The notes under the pieces are model-generated. The model saw nothing but the letters and a program-made list of their open reading frames with translations, made no database searches and was not told the origin of the DNA. DNA of 64,000 bases from Photobacterium sanguinicancri. Its GTDB lineage: Bacteria; Pseudomonadota; Gammaproteobacteria; Enterobacterales; Vibrionaceae. The translations under genes were made by a program, and so were the position numbers. Below, one piece after another: positions 23,078 through 28,996 of this stretch. Within the stretch, counting starts at the first letter, position 1. Each line of letters begins with the position of its first letter. Where the stretch lies: NCBI RefSeq assembly GCF_024346675.1, contig NZ_AP024850.1, positions 1,674,001 to 1,738,000 of the forward strand. The letters run 5' to 3'.

Positions 23078-23276
23078 TTGTCACCTCTTGTTGACTGTTA
23101 ACGCATTATTAACATGCCTGAAAGTTCGCCAAGGTGAATATGATTTAGATCAATATTGTAAATGTTTACCACTATAGTGTTATCCATTTGAGTGGGTTTT
23201 GTGGTGTTGGTGTTGCTTTTGAAATGGGCAGGCATTCAATTTTTGGAACGAAGATAACGAATTTATAGTAAGAAGG
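23078..23276. other. Intergenic, possible small RNA ahead of terminator
   Basis: The gene-free stretch runs from 23078 to 23468. No plus-strand gene was found between 22725 and the strong plus-strand terminator at 23277-23307. A short transcript ending there (a small RNA) is therefore possible, but no clear promoter was recognised. Confidence 0.3.
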
Positions 23277-23307
23277 ACGCCTGAATAAGTATTCAGGCGT
23301 TTTTTTT
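23277..23307 (+). terminator. Strong orphan rho-independent terminator
   Basis: Perfect 10-bp arms ACGCCTGAAT and ATTCAGGCGT enclose a 4-base loop and are followed by a run of T. It points rightwards, but there is no plus-strand gene directly before it. Confidence 0.85.
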
Positions 23308-23380
23308 AGTCTGTAGATTATTGCACATACTTTACGGTATGGTGTTTTGTTTGTTTTTTAAATATGTATAATGTGCGTCA

Positions 23381-23401
23381 CATTATGTCGTATCCATAAT
23401 G
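23381..23401. promoter_or_regulatory. Inverted repeat upstream of WYL gene
   Basis: Perfect 7-bp arms CATTATG and CATAATG are separated by 7 bp and end about 67 bp before the start of the WYL regulator. WYL regulators of defence loci (BrxR/CapW type) commonly bind inverted repeats in their own promoters, so autoregulation is a reasonable inference. Confidence 0.45.
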
Positions 23402-23468: not shown

Positions 23469-24422
23469 ATGGCAAAAAGATCCAGTACACAAGAATCGGT
23501 AGCGTTAGCATTTGAACTGTTAAAACGTATTCCTCGTCACAGAAAAGTGACGGCCAGTGAGTTGCGTAATCAGCTTGAAAGTATCGGCATTACGCGAGAT
23601 ATAAGAACGATACAACGTAACTTAGAAACCTTATGTGAACATTTTAATATCACCCGCGATGAACGCAGTAAACCGTATGGTTACTCGTGGAATAAGTGTG
23701 GCGAAGGGCTGGCAATGCCGAACTTAAGCTCTCATGAGGCGTTGTTATTGAGTATGGCTGAGGACTACTTAGCCAACCTATTGCCTTCAAATGTGATGGC
23801 ATCGCTAGATGGGTTCTTCTCGGAAGCGAGATACAAGCTCAATCCACACTGTGATAACAGCAAAGATAGAAACTGGCTCAAAAAGGTCAGGGTAGTAAGT
23901 GAAACCCAGCCATTGCTGCCACCTAAGCTAGATAGCGAAGTGTTGAAAGCGGTAAGCGGGGCTTTATATAACGACAGACTACTGAATGTGGAATATCACA
24001 ATGCACGCCAACAAACACGCACTGCACTTGTGATGCCGCTTGGACTTGCGCAGCAAGGCTGCCGTATGTACTTAGTTTGTCGGTTCGATGGTTATGACAA
24101 CGAGCGCGCTTTAGCCTTGCACAGAATAACGAAGGCAGTCGTCTCTTCATTTAGTTTTGAGCGGCCTAAAGACTTTCGATTGAGCCAATATGATGCTGAT
24201 GGGCGATTTGGTTTTGGCGAAGGCGATAAATGTAAAATCGTATTTTGTATTACGAAGCCAGCAGGGTATCACTTGCTTGAAACACCACTGGCAGAAAACC
24301 AAACTGTCGAAGAGTTTGATGAACACTATAGTATTTCAGCAACCGTTATTGATTCACTAAGACTAAAAATGTGGGTACGAGGTTTTGGTGATGATATTTG
24401 GAATGTAAGTTACGGTAAATAA
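23469..24422 (+). CDS. WYL-domain transcriptional regulator
   Basis: The 317-residue protein has an N-terminal winged helix (VTASELRNQLESIGITRDIRTIQRNLETL), a linker region, and a WYL domain from about 165. The WYL domain includes LNVEYHNARQQT, MPLGLAQQGCRMYLVCRFDGYDNERALALHRI and a C-terminal extension. This layout is shared with BrxR and CapW, which repress phage-defence operons and may sense nucleic-acid or nucleotide signals. It lies about 165 bp upstream of a five-gene operon on the same strand and is the likely regulator. The ATG at 23469 is preferred to the TTG at 23460. Confidence 0.82.
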   Translation: MAKRSSTQESVALAFELLKRIPRHRKVTASELRNQLESIGITRDIRTIQRNLETLCEHFNITRDERSKPYGYSWNKCGEGLAMPNLSSHEALLLSMAEDYLANLLPSNVMASLDGFFSEARYKLNPHCDNSKDRNWLKKVRVVSETQPLLPPKLDSEVLKAVSGALYNDRLLNVEYHNARQQTRTALVMPLGLAQQGCRMYLVCRFDGYDNERALALHRITKAVVSSFSFERPKDFRLSQYDADGRFGFGEGDKCKIVFCITKPAGYHLLETPLAENQTVEEFDEHYSISATVIDSLRLKMWVRGFGDDIWNVSYGK

Positions 24423-24449
24423 AACGAGCGTGACTTCTTTTACAACAAC

Positions 24450-24486
24450 ATGAATAAAAATCAACTTGGTGAATGTTTTTATTCAT
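24450..24486 (+). terminator. Hairpin after WYL gene
   Basis: Perfect 11-bp AT-rich arms ATGAATAAAAA and TTTTTATTCAT flank a 15-base loop. The hairpin lies 28 bp after the WYL stop and would separate the regulator from the operon. Confidence 0.5.
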
Positions 24487-24526
24487 CATGGTGACTCATC
24501 ATATCTGAAATAAACGTATGACTTTT

Positions 24527-24545
24527 ACTCTTTCATATAAAGAGT
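24527..24545. promoter_or_regulatory. Inverted repeat upstream of five-gene operon
   Basis: Perfect 7-bp arms ACTCTTT and AAAGAGT with a 5-bp spacer end about 42 bp before the ATG at 24588, overlapping where the operon promoter should be. It is a candidate operator for the WYL protein, though its sequence differs from the repeat at 23381. Confidence 0.4.
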
Positions 24546-24587
24546 CATTTAACAAAAATATTAATAATATATAAGTAAGGACGCAGT

Positions 24588-25658
24588 ATGGCATTACCAT
24601 TTATTTTAGCGGGTGCGGCAGTTGCAGCTGCAAGTTTTGGGGCAAAGAAAGGGTATGATGGTTATCAAGATAAATCATTAGCGAATGATATTTTGGAATC
24701 AGCGAAAAGCGATTACGAAAATGATAAAAAATTATTCGACAAAGCAAATGAACGCACAACGAAAAGCCTTACTCAGTTGGGCGAGCTACAGCTGAAAGTG
24801 GGTGAAGATTTTAAAGAGTTTCGTACTATTGCAGACAAGTTGCTTGAAAAAATTAATCAAGCGGGCTCGAAAGATATCAACATCGATTTTCCCCAGCACA
24901 AGCTGGATAAAATTGATGGTTTAGCGTTATCAACCACAGCCTATTTGGGTAAAGTTGCAGGCGCAGGTATTGGTGGTGCGGCGGCGGCATACGCGGTATA
25001 CGGTGGTGTAATGGCACTGGCAGCAGCATCAACGGGTACGCCCATTGCGGCACTTTCAGGCGCCGCGGCCTATAACGCAACGATGGCGGCAATTGGTGGT
25101 GGTTCGCTGGCTGCGGGCGGCTTTGGTATGGCTGGTGGCGCAATGGTATTAGGTGGTGTTGTTGCTGCACCTATTATGGCAATTGCAGGTTGGGCATTTG
25201 CAGCACATGCAGAAGAAGCATTAAGTGATGCACGCAAAACACGCGATGAAGTTGATGATGCCATTTCAAAAATGACCAAAGGTCGTAGCCAGTTAAATAA
25301 GACACGTGGTTATGTTGTTCAAATTAAAACCGAAACACAGCGTCTCTATGAAGTATTCCAAACATACTTTGATAGCTTGAAAGCGATGGATCATTTGATA
25401 AAAACAGGTGCAAATATCGATGCATTTAGTGATGATCTTATTCAAATCATTCAAAACGGCTACCAAGTAGCAGCAATCTTGACTGATATTATTACTACGC
25501 CATTGTTTAAACCTAAATTTGATGAAAACGGTAAAGTCATTATTAAAGATAACATAGTGCAAATTGAAACAGACAAAGAAGGCATGCAGGTAATTAACGG
25601 TGCCGCTATTGATGCAACGCTAGCGAAAGCGCAGTTTGATTCAAAACAATTCAATTAA
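24588..25658 (+). CDS. Gly/Ala-rich membrane protein with coiled coils
   Basis: The 356-residue protein starts with a hydrophobic helix (LPFILAGAAVAAASFGAKKG), then a charged coiled-coil region (about 35-95). A long Gly/Ala-rich hydrophobic core of glycine-zipper type spans about 120-205. A second coiled coil follows (about 210-270), then a polar tail. The order helix bundle / glycine-zipper hairpin / helix recalls apolipoprotein-L-like and colicin-like pore formers, but that is a structural guess. Databases sometimes label similar proteins chemotaxis protein without basis. It is the first gene of the operon, and a stem-loop separates it from the next gene. Confidence 0.7.
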   Translation: MALPFILAGAAVAAASFGAKKGYDGYQDKSLANDILESAKSDYENDKKLFDKANERTTKSLTQLGELQLKVGEDFKEFRTIADKLLEKINQAGSKDINIDFPQHKLDKIDGLALSTTAYLGKVAGAGIGGAAAAYAVYGGVMALAAASTGTPIAALSGAAAYNATMAAIGGGSLAAGGFGMAGGAMVLGGVVAAPIMAIAGWAFAAHAEEALSDARKTRDEVDDAISKMTKGRSQLNKTRGYVVQIKTETQRLYEVFQTYFDSLKAMDHLIKTGANIDAFSDDLIQIIQNGYQVAAILTDIITTPLFKPKFDENGKVIIKDNIVQIETDKEGMQVINGAAIDATLAKAQFDSKQFN

Positions 25659-25665
25659 TAACTAA

Positions 25666-25694
25666 TGAAAGGTGGCAATAAATGTCACCTTTCA
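25666..25694 (+). promoter_or_regulatory. Intergenic stem-loop within operon
   Basis: Perfect 9-bp arms TGAAAGGTG and CACCTTTCA flank an 11-base loop in the 56-bp gap between the first and second operon genes. With no T-tract it is more likely to tune mRNA stability or partial read-through than to stop transcription. Confidence 0.5.
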
Positions 25695-25714
25695 CGTTAT
25701 GGAGTATGTAATTC

Positions 25715-27433
25715 ATGTCTGCAACATCAGCCTCTGTACGCGCCGATTTTCATTTAACTGAAGAACTAAACAAAACCGTAGTACAAAGTTTAGTGAGCTC
25801 ATTTGGCCTCGATTTTTTACTGTTTGAAGATAAAAAAGGCGGCGAAGTTGCCACTGTTCATAACGTACGTAAACACCATAATGGTGAGTCTGATATCTAC
25901 GTTGCTGAGCAAGTAAAACAAGAATATGAAAACAGAGGTGCTTATAAGCCTGCAAAACTTGATGCGGACGGTAATCAAGTGTTCAACAGTAAAGGTAAAG
26001 CGGTAAAAGTTGATCGCTACCATGCTGACAGTGGATATAAAAGCCGAGGAGCCGTTGATAAGACATTGCAGCAAGAAGGCCAATTATACGATGCATATCG
26101 TGGTCAAAATATGGCACAAAACGACAATCGCCAGCTTGATCATATTATTTCATCGAATGAAGTGCACAACGATGCTGGCCGTGTACTTGCAGGGCTAGAT
26201 GGTGTCGAATTAGCGAATCGAGGTTCAAATTTTCAATCTACTCATTCATATATTAATAACCTTAAATCAGCGCACTCAATGGATGCATTTTTAGGGGATG
26301 TACTGCCTCGCACCCTAGAATCTAAAAAAGCACGGATAAAAACAAATCAAGATAAACTGGTAGCAATGCCAGAAAGTACGCCACAACAGCGCCATGAAAA
26401 ACGTAAGCTTGAAGGCAGCATTGCGAAAGACAAAGGCCACGTTGAAGTATTAGAAAGCATCGACGCAGACAAAATGCGTGAAGCGGATAAGCAAGCGCGT
26501 CAGCAGTACGATGGTCAGATCAATGCCAAGTACTATACCAGCAGTAAGTTCCTTAAAAGCACCGGGTATGAATCTGCAAAATCAGGGCTAAAAATGGGCA
26601 TGCGCCAAGCCTTAGGTATGATTTTGGCCGAAGTGTGGTTTGAACTAAAAGAACACATTCCGTCGCTTTATAAAGACTCGCAAGGTAACTTCACTTTAGA
26701 GCGTTTTCTTGATCGTTTAAAAACGATGGCCGTTGATATTTGGACCCGCATTAAAGCGAGATTTAAAGACATTCTTACCGAATTCAAAGACGGCGCTATC
26801 GGCGGTGTACTTTCTAGCTTGACCACCACTGTCATGAATATCTTTTTCACCACTCAAAAGTTGATTGGTAAGTTGATCCGAGAGATGTGGACCAGCTTAG
26901 TGTCAGCAGCAAAAATGGTGTTTTTTAATCCCAGTAAACTGTCGGCTGGCGACTTAGCGCGTGAAGTCACCCGTATTTTGTCCACGGGTGTCGCAGTCGC
27001 TATGGGGGTTATATTGAATCAGCACCTAGCAACGGTAATGACATTTCCTTTAGGTTCAGAACTTGCTGCATTTCTTAGTGCCATTGCCACAGGCCTGATG
27101 ACATTAGGTATCACATACTTTTTAGATCACAGCGAGGTGATGCAAAAGGTGTGGAACTTCCTTAATCAATTTAAAAGCGAAGCGCGTCGCACATTAGAAT
27201 ACTTCCAAAAAGTGAATGTTGAACTAGACCGTTATTTGGTTGAGCTGGCCGCCCTAGAATTTAATTTAGCCCCACAAGAAATGGCGCAATTTACCGATAG
27301 TTTAGTCGCCGTTAATAGTGAATATGAGAAAGGCTTGATTCTTACGCAGGAAATCAAAAAGCGCGATATTGAATTACCATTTGAAGCGGGTAACTTAGAT
27401 AGCACGCGGAGTTGGTTGAAGAGCTTATGTTAA
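25715..27433 (+). CDS. HNH-like nuclease domain fused to membrane region
   Basis: This 572-residue protein is not a named family to me. Residues 139-185 carry an HNH/beta-beta-alpha-metal-like signature without Cys: LDHIIS, then EVHNDAGR, ELAN, and a closing Asn/Lys helix (INNLKSA). Residues 200-265 are a charged coiled coil. From about 290 to 475 there are several amphipathic or hydrophobic helices, including VAVAMGVIL and a second pair at 445-470. A final coiled coil ends in Leu-Cys. A nuclease domain fused to a membrane module suggests a toxin-like or abortive effector. It overlaps the next gene by 7 bp. Confidence 0.65.
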   Translation: MSATSASVRADFHLTEELNKTVVQSLVSSFGLDFLLFEDKKGGEVATVHNVRKHHNGESDIYVAEQVKQEYENRGAYKPAKLDADGNQVFNSKGKAVKVDRYHADSGYKSRGAVDKTLQQEGQLYDAYRGQNMAQNDNRQLDHIISSNEVHNDAGRVLAGLDGVELANRGSNFQSTHSYINNLKSAHSMDAFLGDVLPRTLESKKARIKTNQDKLVAMPESTPQQRHEKRKLEGSIAKDKGHVEVLESIDADKMREADKQARQQYDGQINAKYYTSSKFLKSTGYESAKSGLKMGMRQALGMILAEVWFELKEHIPSLYKDSQGNFTLERFLDRLKTMAVDIWTRIKARFKDILTEFKDGAIGGVLSSLTTTVMNIFFTTQKLIGKLIREMWTSLVSAAKMVFFNPSKLSAGDLAREVTRILSTGVAVAMGVILNQHLATVMTFPLGSELAAFLSAIATGLMTLGITYFLDHSEVMQKVWNFLNQFKSEARRTLEYFQKVNVELDRYLVELAALEFNLAPQEMAQFTDSLVAVNSEYEKGLILTQEIKKRDIELPFEAGNLDSTRSWLKSLC

Positions 27434-27771
27434 CCGAAAACCTCAAACCATTTCCGTGTAACGGCTGTGGGAAATGCTGCGCGAACGTTCACCTGTCAGA
27501 AATAACGCTGCCACTAAGTCGAGGTGATGGCATCTGCCGTCACCTTGATACCGCGACAAGGCGTTGCAAAATTTATGATAACAGGCCAAAGATTTGCCAA
27601 GTAGAACTGCAATATCGAGAGCATTATTCAGAACAGTTTTCATGGGATGATTTTATCGCGATTAACCTAGAAATTTGTGAGAGTCTGCCTGATAGAATTA
27701 CCAACAATCCTGATGATCTTGAGAGTGATAGAAGTAGAACATCAGCGAAAGACGAAGGAATAAAATGCTAG
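27427..27771 (+). CDS. YkgJ-type cysteine cluster protein
   Basis: The 114-residue protein has the YkgJ/CxxCxxCC signature near its start (PCNGCGKCCANVHL), followed by CRHLDTATRRCKIYDNRPKICQ. This matches the family proposed to bind zinc or an iron-sulfur cluster. The ATG at 27427 overlaps the end of the HNH-like gene by 7 bp, and the stop overlaps the next start by 7 bp. This shows tight translational coupling on both sides and strongly suggests a common function. Its role could be metal supply to, or modification of, an operon partner. Confidence 0.78.
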   Translation: MLTENLKPFPCNGCGKCCANVHLSEITLPLSRGDGICRHLDTATRRCKIYDNRPKICQVELQYREHYSEQFSWDDFIAINLEICESLPDRITNNPDDLESDRSRTSAKDEGIKC

Positions 27772-28094
27772 GTAAAATTGAATCGGCACTGGAGAAATTT
27801 AATGCCTCAGCAGTAGAGGCTAAAGCCGTTGTCGATAGTACACAGAATCTCGCACTAGAGGCGAAAGAGTTAGCGCCAATGCTCGACTTGGTTGATGAAC
27901 GTATTCAAAAAGCCGCCGTAAATCTAAAAAAAGAAGTGCTAGAAACGATCGACCAAGCACATGCTAAACACAAGCAGGAAATGGAAGCACAATTTACAAT
28001 AGAGCGAAGCCATCAAAAAAAGATGTTATTGCTTAACGTGGGTATCGCGACCATGGCTGTTATTACATTCGTCTTTCAGCGTATTCTTAGTTAG
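27765..28094 (+). CDS. Coiled-coil, C-terminally anchored small protein
   Basis: The 109-residue protein is almost wholly helical. Charged heptad-like sequence runs over residues 5-80, and one hydrophobic helix closes the protein (MLLLNVGIATMAVITFVFQRIL), so it should be tail-anchored in the inner membrane. It overlaps the preceding cysteine-cluster gene by 7 bp. It may scaffold or anchor a soluble partner such as the hydrolase encoded next. No family recognised. Confidence 0.65.
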   Translation: MLGKIESALEKFNASAVEAKAVVDSTQNLALEAKELAPMLDLVDERIQKAAVNLKKEVLETIDQAHAKHKQEMEAQFTIERSHQKKMLLLNVGIATMAVITFVFQRILS

Positions 28095-28123
28095 CTTTAT
28101 CTTACAAAGGAATCCAAATAACA

Positions 28124-28996
28124 GTGCTCAGTAAACTCAAAGCCATTAAAGCGGCATTACCTCGCGTAAACCGTAATCAATCAATGTCCGATCCAAGCTC
28201 TGCCGTTGAATTGCATGTCATTCGTGAAGGTAAGCAAAAGCCCGAGACCAAAACCGAGACCAAGACCAAAACCAAGGCAAATGCAGCAACCATACTCGTG
28301 ATTAACGGTTTTATGTCGGGCAAAGGTTGTGATGTTTCTGACTGGCTCGAAATTGTCGATACCTTATACCCTGATCACAAAGTGATCCATGTGAAATGGA
28401 AGGCGGGTAACTTGAGCGACTTGCTGTTGGACGATGGCTTAATTCAGTTAATGCCGAGTGTGACCACACAAGATTCGTTAATCAAAAAGTTAGGTGTAGC
28501 AGGATTTTCTGCGATCAATAAAGTCTCTGGGCATTGGCGAAAAGCGTTTGCTGAAACCGAAGTTGTGGGTGTCGCACTGGCCGATTTAATTGAGAAAGAT
28601 CCTGAATTAAATGGTTGTGTGTTGATGGGGCATTCACTCGGTGCTCGCATTATTCGTCACACCATGGAAAGGCTGACAACCAACAAAGTTAGCCAATGTT
28701 ATTTGTTAGCGGGGGCAGTGTCATCGCATTCTAAATTGTGGAATACGGTTTTTGATAAACACGCGACCACCGCTTTTATCAACTGCATGAGTAAGACAGA
28801 TTCAGTACTAAAATACGCTTATAAAGCGGGGACATTATTTCGGGAATCACCGATAGGTTTACATGCGTTAGAGCACAAAAATCATACCGCGATTACTAAC
28901 CTTGATGTTACTGACGTTGCTAGTAAGCACACCAAGTTTAAGCATAAAGCCTTGGGTGAGTTGTTGAAGAAAGCATTTTCTGACATGAAATCCTGA
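28124..28996 (+). CDS. Alpha/beta hydrolase, DUF726-like
   Basis: The 290-residue protein starts with GTG. After a low-complexity Lys/Thr/Glu stretch (about 43-53, from a short tandem DNA repeat) comes an alpha/beta hydrolase core. It has a first strand ATILVINGFMSG, the nucleophile elbow LMGHSLGARI, then YLLAGAVSS, a likely acid in SKTDSVLKYAYK and a likely His near the end. The pattern matches DUF726 (TMCO4/Mil1-like) lipases or esterases. It is the last gene of the operon. A lipase-like enzyme beside membrane proteins suggests membrane attack or lipid signalling; neither is shown. Confidence 0.72.
   Translation: MLSKLKAIKAALPRVNRNQSMSDPSSAVELHVIREGKQKPETKTETKTKTKANAATILVINGFMSGKGCDVSDWLEIVDTLYPDHKVIHVKWKAGNLSDLLLDDGLIQLMPSVTTQDSLIKKLGVAGFSAINKVSGHWRKAFAETEVVGVALADLIEKDPELNGCVLMGHSLGARIIRHTMERLTTNKVSQCYLLAGAVSSHSKLWNTVFDKHATTAFINCMSKTDSVLKYAYKAGTLFRESPIGLHALEHKNHTAITNLDVTDVASKHTKFKHKALGELLKKAFSDMKS

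Follow-up and report, generated by a model that had tools for sequence, protein, structure and literature searches.

The 64,000-nucleotide stretch of Photobacterium sanguinicancri DNA analysed here (contig NZ_AP024850.1, positions 1,674,001 to 1,738,000; hereafter the window, part of a 5.5-Mb genome in two contigs) carries, at 23469 to 28996 on the forward strand, a WYL regulator gene followed by five same-strand genes, g1 to g5, and the conserved core of this set is WYL-g1-g2-g3. The best explanation, which we favour with modest confidence, is a mobile anti-phage (or anti-element) operon that would act at the membrane under WYL control. An earlier reading of the same DNA from its letters alone (the sequence-only reading) had proposed a WYL-regulated operon for defence or conflict; that proposal is supported in part, and it is still the best reading of the locus.

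The operon goes beyond a chance arrangement, since the same gene order recurs across genera. Genes g1-g2-g3 stand in this order in Photobacterium, Vibrio, Escherichia coli, Raoultella, Duffyella, Allochromatium and Acetobacter, with g2 identities of about 60-99% in Photobacterium and Vibrio and about 45% in Enterobacteriaceae, and a WYL or helix-turn-helix (HTH) regulator lies ahead of them in many, not all, records (the plasmid gene tables are incomplete). A Clostridioides difficile plasmid has the order WYL-g2-g3-g1, and a YkgJ-family gene follows g2 there and in Raoultella, E. coli and Acetobacter. All six genes of the sequence-only reading were recovered with the extents and strand it had assigned, but its five-gene system is too wide: WYL-g1-g2-g3 is the conserved unit, and g4-g5 look like an accessory module, given their sporadic occurrence across loci. 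Gene g5 occurs in 4 of 52 genus genomes and g4 with g5 also in two Vibrio loci (L106, L107); g4 stands without g5 in P. jeanii, and homologues of g4 came up in some Vibrionaceae loci and nowhere else. In the inspected E. coli and plasmid loci the annotation shows no g4-g5-like pair following g3, no search having been aimed at such a pair there.

Judged from its residues, g2 (25715..27433, plus strand like the other genes; 572 residues) combines an HNH-like nuclease with a membrane domain, as the sequence-only reading had it. All 25 homologues compared keep D142, H143, N172 and N181, and 24 keep K184 (Proteobacteria, Clostridia and one phage, several being near-duplicates), so that the conserved His-Asn-(His/Asn) metal site appears as D142-H143, N172 and N181 within a motif spanning residues 139-187 (26129..26275); H151 is replaced in the phage and Paraclostridium homologues. 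A second set, G301, T371, N375, T380, R389 and K400, is likewise invariant (25/25) and lies ahead of a transmembrane hairpin predicted by a Kyte-Doolittle scan at residues 426-470 (26990..27124). In PADLOC-DB, g2 belongs to the PDC-M40B family (2e-39, best stretch residues 248-471), and the phage homologue has a weak endonuclease VII match (E 0.007). The name "cobalamin adenosyltransferase", carried by some relatives, has no domain support in Pfam scans of the window, C. difficile and LAh10 phage members.

Gene g1 (24588..25658; 356 residues) encodes a coiled coil with a membrane domain that is indeed Gly/Ala-rich, with 58% Gly+Ala over residues 123-206. It matches PDC-M09A (5e-24) and LeoBC (1e-7, residues 31-255); the PDC-M09A match is common to the E. 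coli, phage and C. difficile g1 proteins (4e-29 in C. difficile), and ASTGTxI...GGG is invariant in 11 homologues. Gene g3 (27427..27771) encodes a CxxCxxCC cysteine-cluster protein of YkgJ type (PF03692, 1e-7). The 7-bp overlaps described for g2/g3 and g3/g4 hold provided that g3 starts at ATG 27427; an alternative start is TTG 27412. The accessory g4 (27765..28094) is a 109-residue coiled coil with a single C-terminal hydrophobic segment (residues 85-108), consistent with the tail anchor suggested before. The accessory g5 (28124..28996) is a DUF726 alpha/beta hydrolase (PF05277, 4e-14; 52.6 bits against a cut-off of 22.6), with GHSLG at residue 169 forming the nucleophile elbow.

Homologous operons are not core genes: the gene set is patchy and mobile. 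Counting the window's own genome here and in the Vibrionaceae, phylum and class counts that follow, g2 is present in 11 of 52 genus genomes (seven close at 64-100% identity, four distant at 27-28%), and the operon in both genomes of the species examined (2/2). At any strength, g2 is found in 37 of 296 Vibrionaceae, many matches being weak, and it is found in 6 of 398 phylum genomes; the PDC-M40B model matches in 5 of 274 class genomes. In E. coli it reaches 376 of 5426 genomes, of which 365 cover 80% or more of the g1-g2 query, and all 408 places are chromosomal. Plasmid copies occur in 64 of 72,556 records (Klebsiella 39), with 19 of the 64 predicted conjugative. Among phages, 7 of 50,697 records carry g2; these are the Aeromonas phages LAh10, D3, D6 and D9, in which g1 and g2 are neighbours, and the NCBI taxonomy assigns all four to Ludhianavirus, family Chimalliviridae. 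The LAh10 g1-g2 pair (L043:6964-9560) is annotated as a chemotaxis protein and a cobalamin adenosyltransferase. Alignment and single-protein scans of the viral_contigs collection gave no g2 relative, and the same scans gave three weak g1-like places, none with the window g1 alone. At the window itself insertion is not demonstrable, because only two close genomes have near-identical merR-cmd DNA downstream, and both carry the operon.

Mobility is also apparent in E. coli, where 11 of the 376 loci were inspected (six among the 30 best rows, five of ten spread down the ranking). A tyrosine integrase lies nearby in nine of these, and the site, resolved in seven, is tRNA-Phe beside dicD/dsbD (five loci), tRNA-Phe beside yqgA/speC (one) or a place beside glnH/dps (one). 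Clear annotated defence genes lie within 12 kb in 7 of the 11, some as pseudogenes or at the edge, and comprise type I restriction, phosphorothioate-dependent restriction, type I-E CRISPR-Cas, Kiwa/Hachiman-like and Abi/methyltransferase genes; one further locus is ambiguous (a TerB/helicase cluster) and three, with P fimbriae or sucrose genes, have no defence genes. In all 11 of these loci (L048-L053, L211-L215) the operon is followed by a phosphoethanolamine transferase gene, and in 10 of the 11 an outer-membrane-protein gene stands ahead of it; the far cargo varies.

The regulator gene (23469..24422; 317 residues) has an HTH-WYL-WCX layout (PF13280 2e-9, PADLOC WYL 2e-15). The sequence-only reading had noted two inverted repeats near it, which differ in kind. 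One, a palindrome around 23368-23392 kept in three related species, is likely the WYL operator: the putative site TGCGTCA-CATTA-TGTCGTA (23374..23392) comes right after a -10-like TATAAT (23367..23372) that we take as part of the WYL promoter and that recurs in three related species. The other (23269..23308), which separates the WYL gene from the LysR gene upstream of it, resembles an intrinsic terminator, with 19-nt arms and a T run, and does not belong to the system itself. Inverted repeats between WYL and g1 were also considered as operators and were dropped because they are not evidently conserved in relatives. The operator consensus, TGCGACA-N5-TGTCGCA, was read off the window site and partial matches in related loci; the window site is its sole match within the 64 kb and one of two exact matches in the genome. 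The second exact match precedes, by 53 bp, a further WYL gene that is 31% identical to the window WYL (L240:5163-6217, G000:C2 about 493162-494216) and is followed by a 177-residue gene that is GIY-YIG-like by eye.

Orthologues of the regulator head several other operons. Among 247 Vibrionaceae, 30 have a WYL orthologue (E<=1e-50), and of 20 further WYL loci taken, ten are of conflict type, the other ten being set apart on gene layout alone. Six of the orthologues head HerA-type six-gene operons (L171-L174, L177, L181), two head dynamin/patatin-dynamin/TerB operons (L175, L179) and two head IetA-type AAA operons, of which one also has ZorA- and OmpA-like genes; three more loci read WYL-389 residues-TerB-LeoB-like-HNH. 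Families were scanned in one locus per type (L171, L175, L176), other loci being joined by blastp clusters, and in L112 for the TerB/LeoB-like/HNH type, the other two being assigned by gene sizes and g2 match. In a plasmid operon with JukA the WYL protein is 51% identical to that of the window. The regulators of the E. coli and C. difficile operons are not close relatives of the window WYL, consistent with separate recruitment.

With at most two mismatches allowed within 300 bp upstream of WYL, the operator precedes 22 of 27 effector-linked WYL loci, window included, and 1 of 10 other WYL loci. By type, it is found in 11 of 13 g1-g2-g3, 3/3 TerB/LeoB/HNH, 3/6 HerA, 2/2 dynamin, 2/2 IetA and 1/1 JukA loci, the last as an exact match. 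Fourteen of the 27 loci had suggested the motif, and eight of the remaining 13 pass; since the 27 loci are related, they are not independent tests. The L171 HerA-type operon encodes proteins of 924 (no family), 219, 988 (the HerA-type ATPase), 216, 162 and 280 residues, and this six-gene type looks like an unnamed conflict system. L175:1621-10481 holds the WYL orthologue, a dynamin, a patatin-dynamin fusion, TerB protein(s) and a third dynamin, an Eleos/Juk-flavoured mix. L176:4632-9695 holds the WYL orthologue, an IetA-like AAA ATPase, a 427-residue protein, a ZorA/coiled-coil-like protein and an OmpA-domain protein, with Zorya-like parts.

Relatives of g2 have also exchanged partners. In a tree of 33 proteins (FastTree, midpoint rooted), those with g1 partners form a clade (support 0.999) of 18 sequences, among them those of LAh10 and the C. 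difficile plasmid. Another 13 have TerB-type, JukA or PDC-M40C partners (the node is without a support value; eleven of them group at 0.72), and two further Vibrio sequences sit on long branches. Partners in the second group include Gly/Ala-rich proteins of about 200 residues with a TerB-like C-terminal part, the TerB match being 0.0021 for one, below the cut-off, and none for another. On a Citrobacter plasmid, a C-terminal part related to these TerB partners is fused to JukA (JukA 2.4e-58); in blastp against the seven small partners the fusion gave four matches of 1e-9 to 9e-7 and a fifth of 0.03, the other two being unlisted. JukA-g2 pairing is found in two unrelated loci. One is this plasmid, represented by three near-identical records of one lineage; the other is Photobacterium genome G041 (L033), with a JukA-like gene and g2 in one same-strand run (PADLOC JukA 2e-4; 50.6 bits against a profile built from 12 JukA sequences).

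These observations can be joined in a working model. The WYL protein would repress its own promoter and the operon at the 19-bp palindrome beside the -10 and would release it on infection, by analogy with BrxR and CapW. The g1 protein, a coiled coil with a Gly/Ala-rich membrane hairpin, may sense or insert into a membrane that phage entry has altered, be it that of an early-infection vesicle or the inner membrane where DNA is injected, and would then recruit or activate g2, an order of events that is part of the proposal. The membrane domain of g2 would hold the HNH nuclease at the membrane, where it could cut incoming DNA. The g3 protein may be a small metal- or iron-sulphur-binding protein that works with g2, perhaps as a redox or maturation switch. 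Some Vibrionaceae would add an effector module of the tail-anchored g4 and the lipase-like DUF726 hydrolase g5, and we speculate that g5 is a lipid-acting add-on analogous to the phospholipase effectors of Juk.

Several observations weigh against this reading. The putative nuclease of g2 gets no HNH call from Pfam, and its structure model is poor (predicted local distance difference test, pLDDT, 45, mostly <50 in the HNH motif, from a five-row alignment); the g1 model is also weak (pLDDT 57.5, five-row alignment) and matches nothing in the PDB at E<=0.001. Pfam gave nothing meaningful for g1, g2 or g4, and among solved structures neither g1, g2 nor the JukA-TerB protein had a useful match. Genome-wide, the one-mismatch operator pattern is not enriched (27 matches against 28 in the reversed control), and half of the HerA loci lack the site. 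The inspected copies in Raoultella and on one Klebsiella plasmid lie near copper-resistance genes. The E. coli loci are related islands with no matched control, so their neighbours are not independent. PADLOC families are not clearly more frequent among the Vibrionaceae neighbours than in control regions: 129 of 131 proteins from 11 core loci (Vibrionaceae and one relative) gave 17 family names, and 129 of 142 from 12 control regions gave 22, at 1e-10. Operon-side neighbours included PD-T4-2_B, Cas6f, TnsB, a methyl-directed restriction enzyme and CapH; on the control side they were mainly helicases together with ZorB-, SngC- and PsyrT-type matches. The McrBC system pointed out by the sequence-only reading is real, with McrB and McrC genes of 848 and 469 residues (solved-structure chain matches 2e-55 and 5e-16) ending about 4.0 kb before the WYL gene, but it is weak evidence because three unrelated genes intervene and because of the missing enrichment. 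The operon itself is flanked by a LysR gene on one side and a MerR gene on the other. The recurrence of a WYL partner among homologous operons, together with their carriage on plasmids, islands and phages, speaks on the other side.

A narrower form of the favoured explanation puts the pore before the nuclease: a JukB-like g1 would open a vesicle or host membrane and the tethered g2 would finish the exposed DNA, the main targets being nucleus-forming jumbo phages. Juk is described, in excerpts of PMC13282480, as JukA with diverse effectors that include phospholipases, JukB forming pores on the early-infection vesicle, and g2 relatives adjoin this jumbo-phage sensor JukA in two unrelated loci, as well as sitting with g1 in four Aeromonas jumbo phages that all belong to Chimalliviridae. 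Neither JukA nor the PADLOC JukB model has a match among the window proteins, however, and the JukA-paired g2 proteins fall outside the window clade; we rate this version as less likely than not. A broader claim, and to us a somewhat more doubtful one, would make the locus a new immunity class against vesicle-hiding phages, in which a Gly/Ala membrane protein and an anchored HNH act at or in the vesicle, the WYL-operator cassette stands before many unrelated effectors, and nucleus-forming jumbo phages captured the pair to exclude rivals.

The operon might instead be a toxin-immunity or addiction module, with g2 as a self-toxic membrane nuclease that the other genes restrain and that stabilises plasmids or islands. 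SMI1/KNR4 domains are common in immunity proteins, and g2 comes after such a gene in the Klebsiella locus inspected (L059:6424-9836 on a plasmid, SMI1/KNR4 - PDC-M40B - PDC-M40C, with copper-resistance genes near); carriage on plasmids and islands, and a WYL control that would suit a toxic product, agree with this. Pfam nevertheless finds no SMI1/KNR4 match in the window operon, and in LAh10, the one phage inspected, no annotated WYL or YkgJ gene adjoins g1-g2, and we consider the module unlikely. A membrane HNH would also suit any other entry route, and exclusion of conjugated or transformed DNA by a tethered g2 agrees with the plasmid copies and their predicted conjugative share; phage carriage and the JukA pairing of relatives point to phages, which leaves this reading improbable. 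An envelope-stress or metal-homeostasis operon unrelated to conflict would draw on the YkgJ-type putative metal-binding family of g3, the DUF726 hydrolase and the Raoultella copy near the pco copper genes; we rate it the least probable, and quite remote, given the sporadic, mobile distribution and a WYL regulator family that is common to conflict operons. Another possible conflict pair, a gene of the phage Gp37/Gp68 family and TcmP (three-Cys-motif partner), sits beside the Acetobacter plasmid copy (L054:9395-11028).

If the anti-phage reading is true, proteins whose present label is "cobalamin adenosyltransferase", "ATPase" or "hypothetical" in hundreds of records from E. coli and Klebsiella would belong to a phage-defence nuclease system, together with partner g1 proteins labelled "chemotaxis protein". 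Juk anti-jumbo-phage systems would then be linked to nucleases, jumbo phages themselves would carry the same weapon, and the shared WYL operator would serve as a sequence tag for further unknown defence operons in Vibrionaceae.

Compared with named and candidate systems, the gene set is only partly "undescribed", as the sequence-only reading had put it: two of its proteins match candidate families in PADLOC-DB 2.0.0, but we found no named system with this set. Open-licence PubMed Central (PMC) literature yielded no mention of PDC-M40 or PDC-M09, sister names only, and among the papers listed on WYL, HNH, TerB and defence islands no title or abstract opening describes the set. The window g2 counts as a PDC-M40B component by its match, and Klebsiella pneumoniae L059 carries PDC-M40B (5e-281) followed by PDC-M40C (6.5e-127); the window has no PDC-M40C match (E<=1), with g1, g3 and WYL instead, its g2 sits in a separate clade, and PDC-M40 is itself a candidate only. 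By the same token g1 counts as PDC-M09A; no other PDC-M09 component turned up in the PADLOC scan of the window proteins, no search having been aimed at them. With Eleos (LeoA/LeoBC) the window shares the weak LeoBC match of g1 and a WYL orthologue that heads a dynamin/patatin/TerB operon, but a Pfam scan found no dynamin-like GTPase in the window operon.

The likeness to Juk lies in g2 relatives that share a same-strand run with JukA, in the membrane-acting effector logic and in the jumbo-phage link; the window has no JukA or JukB match, and its effector has an HNH nuclease domain. JukA was absent from the six proteins (PADLOC, E<=1) and from a genome search at E<=0.001, and our own JukA profile gave no match to g1 and nothing better than 0.059 for g3-g5. 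No JukB match appeared at E<=1, and the JukB model PDLC04114 has no match in the genome, a weak test since this model matched none of 114 genomes nor the controls. The regulator, finally, is of the BrxR/CapW type in its HTH-WYL-WCX layout and its palindrome at the -10, though its WCX match is only 0.0056, under the Pfam cut-off, and its HTH has no Pfam call. Excerpts of PMC9122601, PMC9122589 and PMC9122588 report, for BrxR, half-sites at the promoter with 5 bp between them and, for CapW, palindromes that overlap the -10, and excerpts of PMC9122601 already set BrxR-family regulators beside diverse defence systems. The window WYL has different partner genes, and what it shares with BrxR and CapW is this layout, a palindrome with a 5-bp spacer adjoining the -10.

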